From positions 682,001 to 746,000 of the forward strand of contig NEEC01000008.1 in the NCBI GenBank assembly GCA_002189035.1: DNA of 64,000 nucleotides, given 5' to 3'. Positions 4,928 to 57,570 of this stretch are shown here, one piece after another. Every line of letters starts with the position of its first letter. Position 1 is the first letter of the stretch. This stretch comes from Utricularia gibba. Lineage: Eukaryota > Streptophyta > Magnoliopsida > Lamiales > Lentibulariaceae. The notes beneath the pieces are model-generated. The model was not told the origin of the DNA, ran no database searches, and worked only from the letters and a program-made list of their open reading frames with translations. A program made the translations under genes and the position numbers.

Positions 4928-5821
4928 CTAATGACCCTTTTTCTTCTTTTTTTTATCAGGATAACCATTCAACTTGTAGCAATTTTCTCGCAAGTGCCCT
5001 TCTTGTTTACAATAGGCATAGTGTCTTCCCTTTGGATCCTTGGTTTGGATTGGAATAGCCGAAGATGGTGATAATTGGTTAATCATAGCATGGCTACCAA
5101 GATGTTGATGTGCCATAAAAGCACTCTCCTGTACTGCCGTCTTAACACCCAGGTTTAGCTGTCCCTCCACCGTTATCATCATAGCATAAGCTTGGTCCAA
5201 ATCTTGTTCCGGCTGCATGGTAATGATCTGATCAGTGATGGCAGGAAATTGCTCATTCAGTCCATTTAGGAACTACACCAGTCTGGTTCGTTGCGCTGCC
5301 TTTGTCTCTTTGCAAATTACACATTGATTTGTAGGCATGAGTCCATACAAATCTGTCCACAAATTTTTCATGCGAGAGTAATACTCGACCAACATTTGCC
5401 CTTGTGAAACATGGTACAATTCACGTTGAATGTGAAAAATTGCTGCTAAATTCATTTTCCCCAATTGCTTCTCCATCGTCTCCCAAAGCTCCTTTGCGTT
5501 TCCTGCTGAATTGAAATTGTTGACCAACTCCTATGATATGGAGTTCATCAACCAACATCTCACCATCACATCTACTCAATTACATGCATTGTAGGTTGGA
5601 TTTGAAACTGGTGCTTGTGGAAGTCTACCATTTACAAACACCAATTTATTATGTGCTTCCAGAGCCATGGTCATACTTCTACGCCAAGAGAGGAAGTTTT
5701 TGGTGGTCAAAGACGGAGTCACCAAGATGAGACTTGGATTTTTAGACCCATGAACATATAATGGGTCTAAAGCATTAAGCCCTTGGTGTTGAAGTATCTG
5801 TAGTAATTTTCTCACATCCAA
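4928..5821 (-). pseudogene. copia Gag (N-terminal and UBN2-like regions, damaged zinc knuckle)
   Basis: Minus-strand reading from 5821 gives the copia Gag N-terminus (GSKNPSLILVTPSL, then LSWRRSMTMALEAHNK). Next comes the UBN2-like capsid region at 5273-5527 (LWETMEKQLGK, YYSRMKNLWTDL) and a zinc-knuckle region at 4928-5218 ending HLRENCYKLNGYP. The knuckle reads YAYCKQEGHLRENC, so the first Cys of the CCHC is replaced by Tyr. Stops and frameshifts split the gene into three frames. Gag would coat the element RNA in virus-like particles; this copy cannot. Confidence 0.82.
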
Positions 5822-45440: not shown

Positions 45441-45445
45441 TGGTT

Positions 45446-45903
45446 TGTTAGAGTTTGCAATAAGGTAGGATATTCGGCTATTTTGAGACAGGTTTTGAGA
45501 CTTTGAAAATATTGAACAAAGGCAGAGAAGAATATTGGTTGCTTATGCAGTTCCTTAGGGGGGTACATGAATATTTATAAGCGTAGAAACTAGTTGTTGT
45601 TGAGAACTGTTGCACCAGTCTGTCCATTACGTAGTCAGACTACTGGAATAGCAGTCAGACTGAGTGAGCCGGTGGGAGGTGCAGAGATGTTGTTGGGCAG
45701 TTGACAGCCCATCATGGTATTGGTTGGCCCAGAAGAGCAGAGTCCACTGTCTTTCCTACTTTCTGTCCAGATTGCTTCTCGGCGGGTGTTCTTTACCGCT
45801 GGGTCTCGTCTCTCGCGCGAGTTCTCAGACACTTTCTATAAATTAACAGTCGGGTATTCTCCGGTCTTTGAGCCGTCCTTCACCTCCATATCGATCACCG
45901 ACA
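45446..45903 (-). repeat. 3' LTR of the nested-host copia element
   Basis: About 458 bp, TG...CA ends, near-identical to 57143-57565. The polypurine tract GAGGAGGAA (minus strand) lies just inside at about 45904-45915. Confidence 0.95.
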
Positions 45904-48900
45904 TTCCTCCTCGATGGGTTGGTGAAGGATTGGTTGTTTCACTTGCAAGGTTTAATCGGAGCCCTAGAAGCTGGTGGATTCTGCAGAACGATTTGGGAAA
46001 CAGACATTTTGTGAGGATGTCTGCTGCTTGGCCTTCTAACGCTATGTACTCGCTTTATTGTGTCTTCCTGTACGTAGTCTCTTAACAAATGGTATTTGAC
46101 CTTAATGTGCTCCGTTCTTCCAAACATGACCGGCTTTTAGGCAATGCTAATTGCTGATTTGTTGTCAATTCGTAGGATTACTGGGCTGCTGATTTGTATC
46201 TTCAGGTCAACACAAAGTTTAATTAACCACTGAGTGTGGTTTGCTGCTGTTGAAGCTGCGATATATTCTACCTCCACCGACGATTGTGTGACAACATCTT
46301 GTCTTCTACTATTCCAGGCGAACAGAGCAGATCCTAAGTTGAACAGGTATCCGATCGTTGATTTGCATCCAATTTTGTCACCTGCAAAGTCTGAGTCGAC
46401 GAATCCCTGCAGAATCGGGTGAGTTCCCTTATTATAAAACAGTCCTAAATTGATAGTAGAGTTCATATATCTCAGGATTTTTCTAGCTATTTCCATGTGA
46501 ATCGTATGTGGTTTGTGCATGTATCTGGAGAGAAAGGATACTGCAAACGTGATGTCGGGTCTGGTGGCCATTAGATATAGCAAAGAACCAATGAGTTTCT
46601 AGTAGTCTTGTGTGTCAATAGGCTTTGTATCCAGATCATTCATCTTTTGTCTATCCTCAGGTGAAAATGGCACTGACGCCGCTTTTGTTTTCTCCATATT
46701 CACTCGCTTCAATAGGTCAACAGTATATTTCCTTTGATTAATAAATATCGACTCTTCATTTTGCAATATTTCAATTCCAAGGAAGTATCTTGCGAGGCCA
46801 AGAACTGTGAGATCGAACCGTTGCTTCAATAAGTCCTTTTGCTCAGAAATAAATTTTTCACTACTTCCTGTGATCAATATGTCGTCGACATAGAGTGTAA
46901 TAACGATCTTTCCTTTTGAGTTTTCCAATATATATAAAGTGGTGTCGTTCTTGCTTCGGTAGTACCTTGATCTAGGAAGAATTTGTCGATGGTAGAGTAC
47001 CACCCTTTCGGCGCCTATTTGAGGCCATATAGGGTCTTATTTAGTTTTAAGACATACTCAAGGTGGTCTTGAATTAGAAATCCGGGGGGGGGGTGTCTTC
47101 ACATATATGTCTTCGTTCAGATCTCCATTAAGAAATGCACTCTTGATGTCTAAGTGGTGAAGTTTCCATCTATTGCAGGGGACAAGGCTATTATGAGCTT
47201 GACGGTGTCTAGTCTGGCAACAGGCATAAACGTCTTCAGGTAATCTATTCCGGCTTTTTGGAGGTAGTCCTTTACTACCAGTCTGGCTTTGAGTTTGTTG
47301 AGTATCCCATCGGAGTTTAGTTTGGTCTTGAAAATCCACTTCAATTCCAAGGGTCTTGTATTCTTTGGCTTAGGGACGGCCACCCATACTTCGTGATCAT
47401 GTATGGATTTCAGTTCGGCATCCATGGTGCTTCTCCACTCAGGATATTTCAAGGCTTCAGTCACGCTGTTGGGTTCATGCACCAATAAGCAGCGATCTAA
47501 AATATTTTGGACTGAGCGATAGCCCCTTCTAGGAGGCTCATCTTCACGTTCGCGGGGACTAGTGTAGAGGTGATAAGCCAAGTAGGGCAGGTCTTCATGG
47601 CTTATCCCATAATCTTCTAGATAATTGTATTTTCAGATTCGGGAAGTAATATGGGGTTTCTGATGGCTTAGGGCGGACACCTCAACAAGAGAGCGTCTTC
47701 ATGTTGGTTCAGGGCTCCGTCCAAAGTTTCGAAATCGGAGTCAGTACTGTGGGTAGGCTGCACAGGTATATTGTCTGAGCCTCCTTCTTCAGCATATGAA
47801 AGCGTGACTTCAGGTGTGGATTTTACAGAATCTGAAAACTGTCGACATGTTTCTTCTGCATTTGAGGTTTGGGTAGAAATTTCCAGTCTTGGTGTCGATT
47901 CTAATTCTATTGTGAGGGGGCTGTGTTTCATGATAAGGATCAAGGCCTAAGTCTTGATTAAGAATTCCTCCTGAGTCCTGATTAAGAATTCCTCCTGAGT
48001 CGGATAACATATATACTTGTTGTTGACTCACTTCGTTTGTCGAGTTGTCTTCTTCAGAAATTTCTATCTGCTGTACGGTATGCGGTCCTTGACTTGTTTG
48101 GTCAAGAGAGTCATTTCCAAGACCAGATATAAGTTCCACAGAAGGAAATAGGTTACGAATACCACTGGATAAGCTGGGAGATTCTCATTGGGTAACAGAA
48201 TGTTTTTCCAGTCCCAGGTTTTGTCTTCCTCCACTATGACATCACGGCTGATTTCTACTGCATTCTTTCACAGGTTTAGCACTCGGTACGCTTTACGTGT
48301 ATCGGCATATCCCAAAAAATACCAGGTTCGGATCTGTTATCCAGTTTCGTTCGCTTTTCCTTGGGAATGTAGATATAGCATGGAGAGCCAAAGACTTTAA
48401 TATGATCTAACACTGGGATCTTACCGTGCCAGAGCTCATAAGGGGTCTTGTTGTTCTCGATGCCTTTTGTAGGAAGGTGATTCAAGAGGTATACTGTTGT
48501 GTTTACTGCTTCTCCCCAAAACTCCTTAGGTAACCCCTTTTGGTGTAGCAGACATCGAGCCATATTGATTATGGTTTGATTTTTCCTTTCGCATATTCCG
48601 TTTTGCTCCGATGAGTAGGAGGCTGTAAATTGATGGACAATGCCATTGCTTTCACATAATCTCTTCAGCTCAGTGGATTTATATTCTCCTCCATTGTCTT
48701 ATCTGAGAGTGAGAATTTTGCAGTTGCTCTGAGTTTCTGCAAGAGACTTGAAGATGTTGAAATAGTGCAGCACTTCGGCCTTTCGTTTTAGTAGATAAAT
48801 CCAGGTATATTTTGAATATTCATCCACAAAAATAACATAGTATTTGTTTCCTGCCCTTGTAGGTGTAGCCATCGGGCCCCAGACGTCACTGGTTACAACC

Positions 48901-50471
48901 TCAAGTTTCTCCTTCGAATGAGAGCTGAATTCTGGGAAGGGTTTTCTGTTCATTTTGCATTCGATACAGGTCGGGCACTTTCCGTCTTCTGGACTCAACT
49001 CAGGTAGGCTTTCGCGAGATTCTGCCTTTTCAAAGTTAAAAGGGATGCATAGTGGTGATGTCCTAGTCTCTCATGCCACAGTTTGGTTTTTTCGATTGTC
49101 ACCAGACATACATCTTCAATGAGAGTAGGCATAGAGAGTGTCAAATGAAAGATTATGTTAATCATTTCGCCTATGAGTATTATATTGTTTGCTTCATCTC
49201 TTATAATACACCTGTTGAGTTCCAGGTGAACCTTATATCCTTTTTCCACCAACTGTCCTGTGCTCAATAAGTTATGAGATATGTTTGGTACCAGATACAC
49301 ATCCAAGATTTTGATCAGTCTGTGTGCAGTTTCTATGCACACGGTTCCCACACCCTCAACAGGTAGCTGCTTTCCATCTGAAATCTCAATAAATTTATTT
49401 GAGAGCTTTGAGATGTGCAAGAATATACTTTTTTCGTTTGTAAGGTGGCGATTGCAGCCACTGTCAACCAACCATACCACCCGTTTTCGGAGATCAGTGA
49501 AGGAGGTAATTAGGGTGTGTTGATACTCGAGATAAAGGTCGACTTTCCTCTTATTAACTTCAGCGTTGAAGGATACATCATTGAAAGAATTAACTAGTTT
49601 TTCCATAGGATCGTCGGACATCCCCACAAGCTGATGATATTTCTTGAGTGGATAGACCTGGTCGACATGGCCTTTGAGCGAACAGTAGGAGCAGCTGACA
49701 TCCGGATTTGAGAAGCATTTGGAGGGTGAGTGTCCTTTCCGCTTGCAATAAGGGCAGAGACCGTTTTGAGGAATCTTCTCAGGTTTGGCTTGAATAAACA
49801 CAGGAGGTTGAGAGGTTTCGGCACATGGCTCCTTCTTGGGAAGTCGAGACTCATGAGCATGAAAGGCAAGTTCTGAGGCGTGCAGTTGATCAGCAGCATA
49901 AGGTTTGATTTCCACCCCTTTTAACCCCTAGAGGAGTTGTTTAGAGCTCATGGAATGGATGCGGCCATCAAACTTATGGAGCCAACACATACTCGAATTG
50001 TTGCAGTACAAGGCTGATTATTTTTGCACATAGGCGACTGTCTTCGATCTTCTCACTCAAGCGTTCTAGACCTGAAACAATTTTTGTTAGTTCTTCTGAA
50101 AAACTAGCAATGGACTAACCTGGATGGATCTCGAGCATCTCGTATTGTTTCCACATGTGAGACTTCTCAATAGCTGCAATTTGTATATCTCGACCATATA
50201 TTGAAGCAAGGGTGTCCCAAGTCTGCTTAGGGGAGGTGCAGTTCATTATGGGATCGTAAGTGTTCCCAGGTATTGCTCCACCTAAGATTGCTTGAGCTTG
50301 ATCTGCTTTTTCGTCCCAGGCTGTCTTTTCATCTTATGTTTTTCCTGAGTATTCTGTTGATACAACTGCCCATAGCTTGCATGCACGTAAATAAAGGGTC
50401 ATTTTGTTTGCTCAGCGTTCATATTCACTGCCGGTGAATGTTGGTGCAGGTTGATTGAAGTTAGAGGCCAT
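45904..50471 (-). pseudogene. copia gag-pol polyprotein, interrupted by stops
   Basis: Starts at ATG 50471 (MASNFNQPAPTFTG). The Gag UBN2 region lies at about 50450-50030. Two zinc knuckles follow at about 49770-49640, CPYCKRKGHSPSKC and then CSYCSLKGHVDQVYP, whose last Cys is lost. The protease reads VVWLVDSGCNRHLTN (near 49470). The integrase zinc region begins LWHERLGHHHY. The integrase core reads VTSDVWGPMATPT, then DNGGEY and the glutamate-bearing SEQNGICERKNQT (48900-48560). RT motifs are LKWIFKTKLNSDG, HHLDIKSAFLNGDL and the catalytic TLYVDDILITGS (47340-46880). RNase H reads FVDSDFAGDKIGCKS, then SSVEVEYIAA (46420-46270). It ends THRGGM beside the polypurine tract. Domain order PR-IN-RT-RH proves copia. 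Stops and frameshifts occur near 49995, 48700, 47585, 47100 and 46600. Confidence 0.93.
47953..48001 (-). repeat. 24-bp in-frame tandem duplication within copia pol
   Basis: Two adjacent copies of a 24-base unit encode an eight-residue repeat (DSGGILNQ twice) in the variable linker between integrase and RT. Probably replication slippage. Confidence 0.85.
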
Positions 50472-50561
50472 GGCATCTTCTTGAGAGGAGTGATTGATGC
50501 TTTGAGATTCTGAACAGAAGGTTTTGTGGGAGGACTACGACTTCACGTCGAGTTCATCATG
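50472..50561. other. copia 5' leader remnant between gag start and the nested element
   Basis: Contains the copia leader and the two terminal LTR bases (CA on the minus strand), now separated from the rest of the 5' LTR by the insertion. The usual initiator-Met primer site is not evident. Confidence 0.6.
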
Positions 50562-50564
50562 TTA

Positions 50565-52456
50565 GGGCGCGTTTGCTTGTTGGGTTTTGCCTAAACCCAG
50601 ATTTAGTTTATTTGGGTTTAGGGAACCCGGTTTTGTGGGTTTAGTCTCTGTGAATCATTTTTTGTTGATGGGTTTACATTATTTGGGTTTAAATAAACCC
50701 ACGTTTGCTTGGTGGGTATAAAATTGGGTTTATACATAATTTTCATGGGAATTTACTAATATAGCCTTTCACACTCGTGCACCGACTTTCACACCCACTT
50801 TACCCATTCAGACATATTCCTCTTTCTTACCATTACCCCCTTCGTCCAACGACTTTCACAGTCCATTGTCGCGGTGCTGCCGGTCGACGAGATCTCTCGT
50901 TTTCACAAGTAATTGAGAGTGAAGAGCCATGGGTTACGTCCAGTTTGTATACTCCCTTCGTTGCACAGGGTTTCTTGTTTAAAATCCGTTGAATTTTGAG
51001 TGAATTTTACGGTTTACTTGTGGTAAGTGTTCGGTGTAGATGCTTTGTTCTTGCTGTTTTATTTCCTCCAGCACAGATTGCAAATATGCATAGCCCAAAC
51101 GTGATGGAAGAGTCTCACAAAAAAACGAAACGCGCCTGGAAGCCAGATGAGGAGAAAGACTTGTTGCACGCTTTGAAGCAGATCGTGAAAAAAGGTTGGA
51201 AAATTGAGAATGGTTTCAGGTGTGGGTATCACCGAGCGTTAGAGACAGAGTTTTTGAAACTCCTACCTAGAACCGACATCCGCGCACACCCCCATATATC
51301 TAGCAAGGTGCACACCTGGAAAAAAGACTACTACCTCCTTGTAGATTTTTTATCACGATCAGACACCGGTTTCAGTGAGCTGACCTACACCGTAGACGCA
51401 GACAATGAGGTTTGGAAGGAGATTGATCAGGTATGTATGCTCTGTTGTTGTTGTGTTATATCCGGTGCTGACCGTGTTATTATGTCAGCATGCACCCAGA
51501 CTGCGTGCCCTAAGACACAAGGCGTGGCCGTATTACATGGAGTGGCAGGAAATCTTTGGAAAGGATCGGGTTACAGGAGAAAAAATGAAGAGCTATGTAG
51601 CCGCGATCAAGAAGAGGAAATTCATGGAAGATGTGGGGGAGAATCTGGAAGTATCTTCGGATTGCCCTCTGGACCCGGATAGCACTGGACACGATATGAA
51701 CTTCTCGTATGCTGACACACCTTGTGACCCAATTGGTTGTGCTGCGGAGGGTTTCAACATCACGCCTAGTAGGGACTCTGAATCACACAACAGCACCAAC
51801 TCGTCGCGGCGCACTGGACGAAGCGGCAGGGGACCGAGGGGAATTGATGATGATGTGCAGTTTATCACAGAAATCAAGGAGCTTAACATGCGCACATGCG
51901 AAGAGCTACGTCACTTGGGATTAACAGTGGTGCAGCAAGCGCGGGACTTGATGGATAATCAGCGTCAGGCAGGGGAGATCATTAGAGGTATGCCGGTGCA
52001 ATTAACTGCCATCGAACGTTTTACCATAGCAGAGACGATTAGTTCCAACCCTGCGAGGTTGCGCTATTTCCTTGCCTCTAGCGACTGTGAGAGAGAGCTA
52101 ATTGTGCGTGGTTTAGTATCCGAATGTTGATCTTAAATCTGTTGTGTGGTGCTCCGCCTTATGTTGGAGTCATGGACTAGATGTATTTCGTCTTCTAATT
52201 ATCTTTTAAACTGATATGAGCACTGCAAAGGGTAGACAGTGTTCTAACTTCGTATGTGGAAGCACCGCATAATAGCAATCGCGGTGCTTCGTTGTTGAGC
52301 ACTCATCCGCAAACGTGGTGCTGCAACTATGGGTAAATTCATAGCAGTGCTATCGAGTAGTGATGGACTAGCACCGCGTTGGTTTTGCGTATTACGAAGC
52401 ACCACGTCTAGACACAAGGTTTCAAATCCATAGATGGCACCGGATGTTACAACATG
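50565..52456 (+). repeat. Left arm of the ~1.9-kb inverted repeat
   Basis: Matches the reverse complement of 55305-57139. The outer 150 bases are packed with GGGTTTA/TAAACCC words (telomere-like subterminal repeats). The inner 220 bases carry many GCACCG/CGGTGC words. Confidence 0.9.
51086..52130 (+). CDS. Myb/SANT-like transposon protein (Harbinger ORF1 type), intact copy
   Basis: Two exons, 51086-51430 and 51489-52130 (intron GTATGT...TGTCAG), giving 328 residues with no stop. The N-terminal Myb/SANT-like domain (~10-115) has the conserved Trp scaffold: AWKPDEEKDLL, GFRCGYHRALETEFLK, HISSKVHTWKKDYYLL and VDADNEVWKEID. Exon 2 opens RHKAWPYYMEWQEIFGKDR, equivalent to the family's [R/K]NKPFPYYD.L..IFGKDRATG. 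A Ser/Thr/Arg-rich linker follows, then a C-terminal helical domain (LTAIERFTIAETISSNPARL, then FFLAS-like YFLASSDCERELIVRG). In PIF/Harbinger elements this protein binds element ends and carries the transposase into the nucleus. An in-frame Met at 50996 lies upstream, but 51086 fits the family start better. Confidence 0.87.
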
Positions 52457-52480
52457 CGGTGCCACCGCGAATAGTGATCG
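52244..52480. repeat. Cluster of GCACCG/CGGTGC words, left
   Basis: About eight occurrences of GCACCGCG-like or CGGTGCT-like words (some with one change) in both orientations within 240 bases. Similar clusters sit at 55305-55510 and, more loosely, at 54090-54470. Confidence 0.6.
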
Positions 52481-52599
52481 ATTAAAAACTAACAAGGTCA
52501 GCATACGATAGTTCACGCAAGATCCATGCAATTGCAAAGGTGCGCCGTCGATTAGACAAGAGCCTTGTAATGCTTCCACAATGGGTGTTCCTCATCTAT

Positions 52600-53550
52600 T
52601 GGACGTTGACCTACCCGACGTCGATTGACGTACGTGGGTACATCCATGTTGTCAATGAGGGCTTTCAGGAACGACCTAATATCTCCCCTCGAACCAGCGA
52701 ACAATCATTCGCCGCGGTGTACTTGAATGTGGTTGGGAATATGGCATTTTCGGGCTGTTCAGTGAAAGTAAACAATCATCGGATGCAAGACGGTGGAGAA
52801 TGAGCGCTACCGAAAACTCACCGGATTGTGTAGTGACTTGTATGGCGCATCATCGATGAGAAGCATATTAACACGGTGATATTTGCCCTTGAACTCGGTG
52901 TTGGCGCCCATACATGATTCAACAGCTTAAGCTTAACCGTGTTGTTCCTGTTGTCGTGCATCGGATAGCCAGTGTCCACACACCTGGATCCATCCCATTG
53001 GAAGACGAGCTTGCTAGCTACTGCAGTCCCTAGTAACCACTGAATCACATCGTGCAATTGTTCACTGTCACACGTCGTCAGAAAAAAAAAATGTCAGTAG
53101 GAATGCGGACCCCCTTGTCTGCTAGGTGGTCAGTCTTACCGCCCTCTTGAAGACCAGATAGCGAGGTCAAAGTGTTCCATGCAAAATTGTATCAACTCAC
53201 ATGCACCTGGTCGAAGATACACTACAACCACAAGAAATAGTACTGACACATGAACCAAATATTAAATGCATATCAATGACATTGCATTACCGTTTCGCCC
53301 GTAAATGACGGCATCCGGCTTTGGCGCTCCCCATATGACTTCGCGAGGATACACAATGTCCGCAAGTACGCCATTCATGTCAAATATAAGCAACTTCCGT
53401 GGTGGGGCCGTGTTATCACTAGACAGTCCACCATATGGCCACCTTGCTTCATACCATGCAAGCCGACCACAAAGATCAAGATTCTCTGCGTACAGTCTCT
53501 CCACTTCGATATATTTTGCAGTGACAACACCACACCCGTCATCGTGAGTC
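52600..53550 (-). pseudogene. Captured fragment of a host HAD/FCP1-like phosphatase gene, introns retained
   Basis: Minus-strand exons in order. The first ends at 53291 and contains RKLLIFDMNGVLADIVYP (the DxNGxLxD HAD nucleophile motif) and KPDAVIYGRN, followed by donor GTAATG. The second is 53140-53221 (VYLRPGACELIQFCMEHFDLAIWSSR, here joined to donor GTAAGA). The third is about 52833-53060 (DVIQWLLGTAVASKLVFQWD, then after a one-base shift GKYHRVNMLLIDDAPYKSLH). The fourth is about 52625-52735 (PENAIFPTTFKY, then GDIRSFLKALIDNMDVP after another shift). The order matches plant FCP1-homology HAD phosphatases, which act on phospho-Ser/Thr of RNA polymerase II or related targets. Two frameshifts mean no full protein is made. 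Introns show genomic DNA was captured, not cDNA. Confidence 0.78.
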
Positions 53551-53639
53551 CAGATCGGTGTTGGCGTGTCCGTGTTGCCCCTGACTTCTGGCTGCACATC
53601 TTCTTGCTCTTCATGGGTCATCTCCTCAGGATCATCATT

Positions 53640-53884
53640 TGTACTCGTACGTTATCGACGGTGTCGAGGGGTTCCGCACCACAAATGTTGTGTCCTAGGG
53701 GCATTGACGAAGGGGGGCAAGACGTCCTCCAAGGACTTTGTTCTGCAAGAGAACAAATTCACGAACCTCCTTGCCGCACGTTTTGGCAACACCTCTATAC
53801 CTACAATGAAAACAGCAACAAACATGAGTACGGTTGCACAAGATGTGTGCAACACCGAAATTATTCTGTATGGTTACCTGATGG
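53640..53884 (-). other. Unassigned exon-like segment inside the TIR element
   Basis: On the minus strand an acceptor (TTTTCATTGTAG) at about 53801 is followed by an open stretch reading RGVAKTCGKEVREFVLLQNK or, in another frame, IEVLPKRAARRFVNLFSCR. It lies just upstream of the captured phosphatase exons and might be their preceding exon, but I do not recognise it. Confidence 0.3.
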
Positions 53885-54030
53885 ATGTCCTACATTCTCT
53901 AACACTGTCAACGTTGTTGGCCATTCTGCAGCGGTGGGTGGGCATACCCATACAAAACTGGTCCATCAATCATCATATGCACTTCTCACGTCTGTAACCA
54001 GAATCACACCATGTTTTCCATGAAGCGAGT
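53885..54030 (+). repeat. Inner inverted-repeat block (partner 55120-55290)
   Basis: GTCAACGTTGTTGGCCATTC through TTTTCCATGAAGCGAGTAG matches the reverse complement of 55290 to 55120 with a few changes. So the inverted arrangement extends past the captured gene, which interrupts the left side only. Confidence 0.8.
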
Positions 54031-54119
54031 AGTGTGGATCATTGGAGCCAACACCACGATCTTCAGTTGAGGTGCTTCCACATAGGCTTGTACGACACCA
54101 ACGTTGTGGGCAGCACCAT

Positions 54120-54470
54120 GTGTTTCATCGTATCCGGTGCTCATAAAATTGAAGATTAGATGAGTGTGAAGCTGGTGCATAGTAGTGAGGGTATTTGGTA
54201 CTACAGCAAAGCGTCATTTGACCGAACACCGCGATCCGTAAACTCCGGTGCTTCTGTACGCTTGGGCTATGCTGCGTTCAGTGCTGCACCGAATGTTTCC
54301 TCGTATCCAGTGCTGTCAAATCTTAGAAGTAGATGTGTACGCAGCTCGTACATGTTAGCATGGGTGATTGGTAGTACAATAATACTCCATTTGACCAAAC
54401 ACCGCGATCCGTAATATGCGATGTTTCCAAATACCTGAGGTATGCTACACATTCCACAGCATCGCGAAAA
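54120..54470 (+). repeat. Two diverged ~165-bp tandem units
   Basis: The unit TGTTTCATCGTATCCGGTGC...CATTTGACCGAACACCGCGATCCGTAA (from about 54119) recurs from about 54293 as TGTTTCCTCGTATCCAGTGC...CATTTGACCAAACACCGCGATCCGTAA. Non-coding. No function known. Confidence 0.7.
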
Positions 54471-54760
54471 CCTAATCCGATGTTCTGAGTTCCAAAAACA
54501 AAATGCCATAAGATATTGCAGTTATCCAGCATTAAATGCGAAGGGCGGTTGACAACCGCCCAGCGCTATTAATACCCCCCTGCGCACAATAAAGACGCCT
54601 GACATTGTGCACTTTCCAAAATAACTTCATTAATTCTGCCATCCAACTCCACCCTTTCAGCAAACATGCAACAACACCACGAAAACAGTCTCCTCGGCAA
54701 CCTCTCTAGAACAGCGTCGCGACGGTAGACACCTTTGCCCTTTGCATTTCAAATTCTTCG

Positions 54761-55249
54761 TTGCCATTGTCGAGTAACACGTCTATTGTTTTCCAGATGT
54801 TGACATGTGAGAAACTACGTGTCCGCTTCTCAATTCCCGACGGTTACACGATGTGGGATAAACAGTCGGGCGAAACGTCGGACGGCGAACCACCATCCAG
54901 AGTTGGCGGTTCGGGATTCGCCGTCAGCACCGAGCACTTTCGGTGTGGATTGCGACTCCCCCCACCCCCTTTCTTAGTGCAAATACTTGCTGCACTTCAG
55001 ATCCCACTCTCCCACCTAACACCGCGTTATGTGGCACACGTTCTCGCATTTTTGCAGATCTGTGAAGAGGAGGACATAACCCCGGAAATGCATGTCTTCT
55101 TTGTGGTTTCTATTTGTGTCCAACGCAAGGGGGGTCCGCACTACTCGCTTCATGGAAAACCTGGTGTGGTACTGGTTATAGACGTGAGAAGCGCATATGA
55201 TGATTGGTGGACCAGTTTTGTATGGGTATGCCCACCCACCGCTGCATAA
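54761..55249 (+). CDS. ORF with gypsy-type transposon gag-like domain (Transposase_28-like)
   Basis: An open frame of 162 codons. The part EHFRCGLRLPPPPFLVQIL, followed by IPLSHLTPRYVAHVLAFLQ and a hydrophobic/aromatic tail with DDWWTSFVW, resembles the plant 'putative gypsy type transposon' domain, an RNA-element gag-like segment of uncertain role. The usual GWYYF-like stretch is lacking. The last 100 bases overlap the inner inverted repeat, so the ORF end is shared with 53885-54030. Probably a transposon fragment with no function of its own. Confidence 0.45.
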   Translation: MPLSSNTSIVFQMLTCEKLRVRFSIPDGYTMWDKQSGETSDGEPPSRVGGSGFAVSTEHFRCGLRLPPPPFLVQILAALQIPLSHLTPRYVAHVLAFLQICEEEDITPEMHVFFVVSICVQRKGGPHYSLHGKPGVVLVIDVRSAYDDWWTSFVWVCPPTAA

Positions 55250-55290
55250 TGGCCAACAACGTTGACAGTGTCAGAAAATGTGGGACACCC
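55120..55290 (-). repeat. Inner inverted-repeat block (partner 53885-54030)
   Basis: Reverse complement of 53885-54030, as described there. Together with the outer arm it shows that the right half keeps the ancestral, uninterrupted arrangement. Confidence 0.8.
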
Positions 55291-55304
55291 ATGTCAGAGG
55301 ATGT

Positions 55305-57139
55305 TCAACATCCGGTGCCGTCTCTGGATATGAAACCTTGTGTCTAGACATGGTGCTTCGTAATATGCAGCACCAACACGGTGCTAGTCCATCACTTCTC
55401 GATAGCACCGCTGTGAATGTGGCGGTAGTTGCAGTACAATGTTTGCAAAAAAGTGCTCAAGAACGAAGCACCGCGCTTGTTCATACGCGGTGCTTCCACA
55501 TACGAAGTCAGAACACTGTCTACCCTTTGCAGTGCTCATACCAGTTTAAAGGAGGAAAAGAAGATGAAATACATCTAGTCCATAAGTCTAACATAAGGCG
55601 GAGCACCACACAACAGATTTAAGATCTACGTTCTGATGCTAAACCACGCACAATAAGCTCTCTTTCACAGTCACTGGAGGCAAGGAAGTAGCGCAACCTC
55701 GCAGGGTTGGAACTAATTGTCTCTGCTACGGTAAAACGTTCGATGGCAGTTAATTGCACCGACATATCTCTAATGATTTCACAGTCACCAACTCCCGCGC
55801 TTGCTGCACTACTGTTAATCCCAAGTGACATAGCTCTTCGCATGTGCGCACGTTAAGCTCCTTCATTTCTTTGATGAACTGCACATCATCGTCGATTCCC
55901 CTCGGTCCCCTGCCTCTTCGTCTAGTCCGCCGCGACGAGTCGGTGCTATTGTGTGGCTCGGAGTCCCTACTAGGTGTGACGTTCACACCCTCCACAGCGC
56001 AACCAATTGGGTCACAAGGTGTGTCAGCATACGAGAAGTTCATATCGTGTCCAGTGCTATCCGGGTCCAGAGGGCAATCCGAAGATACTTCCAGATTCTC
56101 CCCAACATCTTCCATGAATTTTCTCTTCCTGGTCCCGTGAACATAGCTCATTGTTTTTTCTCCATGTAATACGGCCACGCCTTGTGTCTTAGGGCGCGCA
56201 GTCTGGGTGCATGCTGACATAATAACACGGTCAGCACCGGATATAACACAGCGACAACAAGGCATATGTACCTGATCAATCTCCTTCCAAACCTCATCAT
56301 CTGCGTCTACGGTGTAGGTCAGCTCACTGAAACCGGTGCCCGACCTAGATAAAAAATCTACAAGGAGGTAGTAGTCTTTTTTCTAGGTATGCACCTTGCT
56401 AGATATATGCGGGTGTGCGCGAATGTCGGTTCTAGGGCGGAGTTTCAAGAACTCTGTCTCTAACGCTCAGTGATACCCACCCCTAAAACCATTCTCAATT
56501 TTCCAACCTTCTTTCACTATCTGCTTCAAAGCATGCAACAAGTCTTTCTCCTCGTCTGGCTTCTAGGCGCGTTTCGTTTTCTTGTGAGACTCTTCCACCA
56601 CGATTGGGCTGTGCATACCTGCAATCTGTGATAGAGGAAAGAAAAAAGCAAGAACAAAGCACCTACACCGAGCACTTACCACAAGTAAACCGTAAAATTC
56701 ACTCAAAATTCAACGGATTTCAAACGACAAACTCTGCGCAACGAAGAGAGTATACAAACTAGACTTAACCCATAGCTCTTCACTCTCAGTTACTTGTGAA
56801 ATCGAGAGATCTCGTCAACCGACAGCACCAAGACAACCGAGTGTGAAAGTCGGTGGACAAATTGGGAAAACTAGGTAATAAAGAGGAATATGTCTGATTG
56901 GTTAAGTCGGTGTGGAAGGCGGTGGACGAGTGTAAAAGGCTATATTGGTAAATTCTCATGAAAATTATGTATAAACCGAATTTTATACCCACCAACCAAA
57001 CGTGGGTTCATTTAAACCCAAATAATGTAAACCCATCAACCAAACATGATTTCTAAACCCTAAACCCACGAAACCGGGTTCCCTAAACCCAAATAAACTA
57101 AACCTGGGTTTAGGCCAAACTCAGCAACCAAACGCGCCC
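55305..57139 (-). repeat. Right arm of the ~1.9-kb inverted repeat
   Basis: Reverse complement of 50565-52456 with many substitutions and at least two internal deletions within the gene copy. Confidence 0.9.
55619..56616 (-). pseudogene. Second, degenerate copy of the Myb/SANT-like transposon protein
   Basis: The mirror-image copy of 51086-52130. It opens at 56616 (MHSPIVVEESHKKTKRA). Its Myb-like domain is interrupted at least three times: two TGG Trp codons read TAG (near 56564 and 56384) and one CGA reads TGA (near 56467). All three are C-to-T type changes. Exon 2 has lost the stretch around the IFGKDR motif (near 56150) and another segment near 55770. The C-terminal part (LTAIERFTVAETISSNPARL) is still well conserved. 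It cannot make the full protein. Confidence 0.88.
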
Positions 57140-57142
57140 TTA

Positions 57143-57565
57143 GAGTTTGCAATAAGGTAGGATATTTGGCTGTTTTGAGACAGGTTTTGAGACTTTGAAA
57201 ATATTGAACAAAGGCAGAGAAGAATATTGGTTGCTTATGCAGTTACTTAGGGGGGGTACATGAATATTTGTAAGCGGAGAAACTAGTCGTTGTTGAAAAC
57301 TGTTGCACCAGTCTGTCCGTTACGTAGCCAGGCTACTAGAACAGTGGTCAGACTGAGTGGGCCGCTAGGAGTTGACAGCCCATCATGGTATTGGTTGGCC
57401 CAGAAGAGCAGAGTCCACTGTCTTTCCTACTTTCTGTCCAGATTGCTTCTTGGCGGGTGTTCTTCATAGCTGGGTCTTGTCTCTCGCGCAAGTTCTTAGA
57501 CACTTTCTCAGTCGGGTATTCTCCGGTCTTTGAGCCATCCTTCACCTCCATATCGATCACTGACA
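57143..57565 (-). repeat. 5' LTR of the copia element, split by the TIR element
   Basis: Partner of 45446-45903. The nested insertion duplicated TTA within the LTR terminus CTCTAACA, so the final CA now lies at 50560-50561 on the far side of the 6.6-kb insert. Confidence 0.95.
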
Positions 57566-57570
57566 TGGTT

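Follow-up and report, generated by a model that had tools for sequence, protein, structure and literature searches.

We analysed a 64,000-nucleotide stretch of DNA from Utricularia gibba (the window) and found that the 6.6-kb locus at positions 50562-57142 is a chimera in which the left parts of two non-identical copies from a single PIF/Harbinger family are joined tail-to-tail; both copies lack the transposase and the right terminus. We give a probability of about 0.8 to a chimera of two family copies with insertion, second insertion, and deletion as the favoured history. An earlier note on this DNA had described a distinct type of element, which does not hold: the arms come from two subfamilies, only 1 of 31 end pairs has this arrangement, the centre is element DNA, and only one ORF1 is open. 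The locus is a one-off wreck and does not represent a novel class of mobile element; it illustrates how a pair of ordinary DNA transposon copies can turn into a large inverted repeat resembling a new element type.

Comparison of the window with itself bore out the geometry of a giant inverted repeat. Its arms (50564-52448 and 55307-57140) were 87.2% identical over 1,888 alignment columns (E = 0), with a K2P distance of 0.110, and shared 16 uninterrupted exact matches of 21 nt or longer (602 nt altogether, the longest being 104 nt). A second inverted pair (53881-54038 and 55135-55292; 92% identical) had been overlooked in the earlier note. Both outer termini read GGGCGCGTTTG, and each is flanked by TTA, so the matching ends and flanks that the note had reported stand.

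We searched a 100-Mb assembly of 516 contigs for related sequences. The left arm alone had more than 40 matches, and both the arms and the centre proved to be family sequence whose order is fixed in other copies: left end, ORF1, a third gene that is NIF-phosphatase-like, DDE_Tnp_4 transposase, and right end. In terms of segments, a normal copy runs from the left end through A (equal to window 50565-54038), B′ (the reverse complement of window 54034-55134), and C to the right end; segment C, which carries the transposase, is missing at the locus. The parent family is PIF/Harbinger according to published membership criteria (PMC2213677, PMC4482050): its short terminal inverted repeat has the G(N)5GTT motif (PMC2213677), present in GGGCGCGTTTG at both ends of the locus; the 3-bp TWA target duplication is TTA/TTA here; a Myb/SANT ORF1 lies at the locus; and a DDE_Tnp_4 (HARBI1-like) transposase occurs in normal copies and is absent from the truncated locus. 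The Harbinger-like assignment made earlier was thus upheld, and relatives with a transposase, of the kind that the note had proposed to look for, were found as normal copies with DDE_Tnp_4 (in copy L011, positions 5143-5640, PF13359, E = 1.7e-14; PF13359 matches also lie inside many other copies). Accordingly, the remark that no transposase is visible is right for the 6.6-kb locus itself, where the transposase is absent because the element is truncated, and wrong for the family, whose normal copies carry it in the segment lost here. The idea that host DNA fills the centre was rejected, since 52449-55134 aligns with the interior of tens of family copies at 69-93% identity and the family has more than 40 matches. 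Target duplications in the family are mostly TAA or TTA (TAA/TAA in L009, L011, L013, and L015), with TGA/TGA in L007 and ATA/ATA in L006 as exceptions. The left and right ends have about the first 23 bases in common and differ after approximately position 23.

We also observed short left-right pairs that carry the family's end signatures and measure approximately 0.35-0.9 kb, several of them near 865-898 bp (at, among others, G000 C1:5564746, C413:2874287, C413:3973579, C4:1047445, C142:864758, C255:1260164, and C304:289420); they are likely a set of non-autonomous deletion derivatives of the same Harbinger family.

The two copies and their junction are as follows.
50565-54038, plus strand: left copy (subfamily L006/L014/L024), with left terminal region, ORF1, and the 3′ part of the NIF-like gene
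54034-57139, minus strand: right copy (subfamily L007/L021), inverted, with left terminal region, ORF1 pseudogene, and segment B
54034-54038, no strand: fusion junction, with an overlap of 1 exact base and at most 5 tolerant bases

The left copy is truncated at 54034-54038, where A-type sequence (AGTAGTG...) gives way to B′-type sequence in reverse complement (...GTGGATCATTGG), and the right copy has an internal deletion at 55291-55292 that took out the NIF part. In trees built on 12-15 rows, the left arm grouped with L006/L014/L024 (100/100) and the right arm with L007 (95/91). The inner segments agreed with their respective arms: A2 of the left copy was placed with L006 (100/100) and segment B with L007/L021 (95/91). 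Constraining the arms to one clade cost 228 log units (AU test, p-AU = 2.9e-47). Because the arms fall in different clades and the AU test rejects their union, two subfamilies were joined here, and palindromic duplication of a single copy was rejected. No second genomic match spanned the junction at 54034-54038 among the candidates scored (40/61); for large families the lists of candidates give minimum numbers, and another fused copy may have escaped detection.

The two ORF1 copies differ in condition.
51086-52130, plus strand: left ORF1, Myb/SANT-like, join(51086..51430,51489..52130), 328 aa, two exons, open
55619-56616, minus strand: right-copy ORF1 pseudogene, with exon 1 interrupted by three in-frame stops and with 37 and 16 bases deleted

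The left ORF1 matched Myb_DNA-bind_3 (PF12776) above the cut-off in a profile search (E = 3.1e-6). The claim of a full ORF1 in each arm is therefore correct for the left arm, with its open frame of 328 aa, and incorrect for the right, with its stops and deletions. The exon 1 stops of the right arm (window 56160-56616) comprise two changes from TGG to TAG and one from CGA to TGA; all three are C-to-T/G-to-A changes, as expected for deamination of methylated cytosines.

The insertion point of the element is a TTA within an LTR of an older copia-like retrotransposon. These 3 bp were duplicated, and the flanking LTR and retrotransposon sequence was retained without loss; the copia label reflects ORFs read by eye. 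The features of the site are listed below.
45446-45903, minus strand: intact LTR (3′ LTR in the retrotransposon's orientation), aligned to the rejoined other LTR; empty-site control TG-TTA-GAG
45904-50559, minus strand: retrotransposon internal region, with gag zinc knuckle/protease, reverse transcriptase, and RNase H fragments, read by eye
50560-50561, minus strand: TG end of the second LTR, on the left-hand side of the insertion
50562-50564, no strand: TTA target-site duplication, left
57140-57142, no strand: TTA target-site duplication, right
57140-57565, minus strand: remainder of the LTR that the element interrupts (5′ in the retrotransposon's orientation), ending in CA and followed by TGGTT (57566-57570)

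Joining 50561 to 57140 rebuilds an LTR that begins TGTTAGAG, which places the insertion 2 bp inside one LTR; the other LTR is the empty site (TG-TTA-GAG), answering the earlier call for an empty TTA site and providing the insertion event with an internal control. The LTRs differ by a K2P of 0.065 over 425 nt. The TGGTT duplication occurs at both outer sides of the retrotransposon (at 45441-45445 it borders the intact LTR). Together with the rejoining of the LTR, this indicates that the flanks are contiguous and that the insertion added the element and one TTA; an origin of the flanks from different loci was rejected by the same duplications. The ORFs of the internal region lie at 46137-46598, 47150-47632, and 48995-49927, and related copies of this region elsewhere in the genome are 65-90% identical. 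A collinear relative of the retrotransposon (window 45446-57565) is present at G000 C1:6566562-6571614 with a deletion at the LTR junction. Part of it (C1:6566562-6567534) was tried as an empty site and rejected, as it joins 50211 to 57251 and represents a deleted relative of the retrotransposon.

How the two copies came together can be read in several ways, and the split among these histories is our judgement and not a computed result. The earlier note held that the whole structure moved, or was created, as one unit. Its single TTA duplication stands and is backed by the internal empty site, but it does not establish joint movement, because insertion beside a first copy followed by deletion leaves ends and flanks identical to those of fusion elsewhere followed by one jump. 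We consider a stepwise history the most likely, at slightly better than even odds. Copy 1 would have inserted at the TTA in the LTR; copy 2, in opposite orientation, would then have inserted into the TTA beside the right end of copy 1; and one deletion of several kilobases, sealed with little homology, would have taken out both right parts, leaving two left ends facing outward. Family ends do abut other elements across a single TTA/TAA (G000 C505:345332, C317:1470202, and C505:220522). Each represents an insertion into the target duplication of an element already present, although the partners in all three pairs belong to other element families and are not two copies of the same family. Moreover, neighbouring same-cluster PIF pairs in maize are mostly in the same orientation, not in opposite orientations (PMC8903248), and the order of insertion, insertion, and deletion leaves no record in the sequence. 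A possible but clearly less probable course is that fusion came first: oppositely oriented neighbours elsewhere would have behaved as a single element bounded by the two outer left ends, or would have been fused by template switching during gap repair, with the composite then inserted in one event. The single TTA duplication and the precise empty site are what one jump predicts, the approximately 23 bases common to both end types might make two left ends usable, and remobilised fused neighbours have been proposed for Pack-TYPE elements, PIF included (PMC8903248). Against this, neither a donor nor a second copy with the junction was found among the candidates scored (40/61). The earlier note had also suggested searching for other copies with the same ends; the census of end signatures in the assembly found such pairs, but 30 of the 31 were left-right and the only left-left pair was this locus.

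Conversion in place would require two template switches: the right part of a normal copy would have been replaced, during break repair, by the inverted left part of another element, with re-entry at the shared terminal bases. The 23 or so common terminal bases would be enough for switching, and abortive gap repair is a proposed route to deletion derivatives of PIF/Harbinger in Medicago (PMC2213677), but a clear right-end signature is absent from the terminal bases, and we consider this course unlikely. An assembly artefact is more improbable still. Repeats of approximately 90% identity can be misjoined, and a genuine pair of copies may have collapsed internally, yet the sequences to the left and right of the locus belong to a single retrotransposon bounded by matching TGGTT duplications, which indicates that distant loci were not joined. 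Least credible of all is a genuine PIF/Harbinger family of the foldback type, whose terminal inverted repeats are kilobases long and which spreads in that state. This reading has the geometry of this single locus in its favour, but the arms are not sisters in the AU test, and dispersed copies with long terminal inverted repeats were refuted, for the copies reached, by the census (1 left-left against 30 left-right pairs) and by the junction, which occurs at this locus only among the matches scored.

The locus and its parent family resemble several known systems in part. The family is like the two-gene PIF/Harbinger elements (maize PIF, rice Ping/Pong, and Medicago Master/MtPH) in its TTA/TAA duplication, G(N)5GTT terminal repeat, Myb/SANT ORF1, and, in normal copies, DDE_Tnp_4; it differs in carrying a third gene (PF04195 plus NIF-like), and the locus differs in that both of its ends are left ends, it lacks a transposase, and one of its ORF1 copies is dead. 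Foldback elements (Galileo, Tetris, and FB) likewise have very long terminal inverted repeats, whereas the repeat here is a one-off accident and not the structure of a family. The Pack-TYPE model, in which neighbouring insertions fuse (PMC8903248), likewise has two copies of the same family joined and their internal ends lost, but the locus is inverted instead of tandem, has no captured host DNA at the junction, and is a single copy. The MuDR-derived Mu killer of maize has two ends that are both from the mudrA side and partial mudrA copies in inverted arrangement (PMC3440606). Our locus is likewise an inverted partial duplication of an element gene between two same-side ends, but it belongs to another superfamily, its repeated gene is ORF1 and not the transposase, and its arms are approximately 90% identical without gaps and come from two subfamilies. 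By analogy with Mu killer, production of dsRNA and silencing by the inverted arms are possible, and fusions of this kind, if transcribed, would naturally supply dsRNA directed at the family they derive from, which is what has been proposed for Mu killer. Movement of the locus would require transposase in trans and a pair of left ends being enough for transposition; the locus is probably a relic and inert.

The third gene may be a more lasting point than the fusion, given that PIF/Harbinger elements are described with two genes (PMC4482050). Its parts at the locus are the following.
52818-53651, minus strand: exons for the NIF/FCP1-like phosphatase domain of the element's third gene (PF03031, E = 8.3e-5, hand-joined exons)
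54710-55249, plus strand: PF04195 (Transposase_28) part, the 5′ half of the third gene, right copy (E = 8.5e-10)

The NIF assignment is modest; in a diverged copy the match (E = 0.0015) was below the cut-off. The domain exons also occur in tens of other copies. Pack-TYPE elements are defined by a captured host gene fragment and the lack of a transposase; the present locus has no transposase, and its NIF-like gene is a component of the whole family instead of having been captured by this copy in particular. A query of 72 residues from the domain gave 122 matches in the genome, and 39 of the 116 places entered had a DDE_Tnp_4 match within 6 kb (by chance, approximately 1.8% each), on the same strand in 37 of the 39. 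Recurrence of the gene beside DDE_Tnp_4 transposases extends to diverged Harbinger lineages. Our search of the literature found no paper tying NIF-like phosphatases to Harbinger elements. At a little under even odds, we tentatively propose that the third gene (PF04195 plus NIF/FCP1-like) may be a regular, functional part of a PIF/Harbinger lineage, on the transposase strand and under purifying selection; repeated capture from a host gene is a possible alternative. The dN/dS of the NIF-like gene was 0.16-0.37 between lineages where computable, with dS near saturation, and 0.4-1.5 within one diverged lineage; these values hint at purifying selection but do not establish it. Diverged NIF-like copies lie mostly 1.2-2.7 kb downstream of the transposase.
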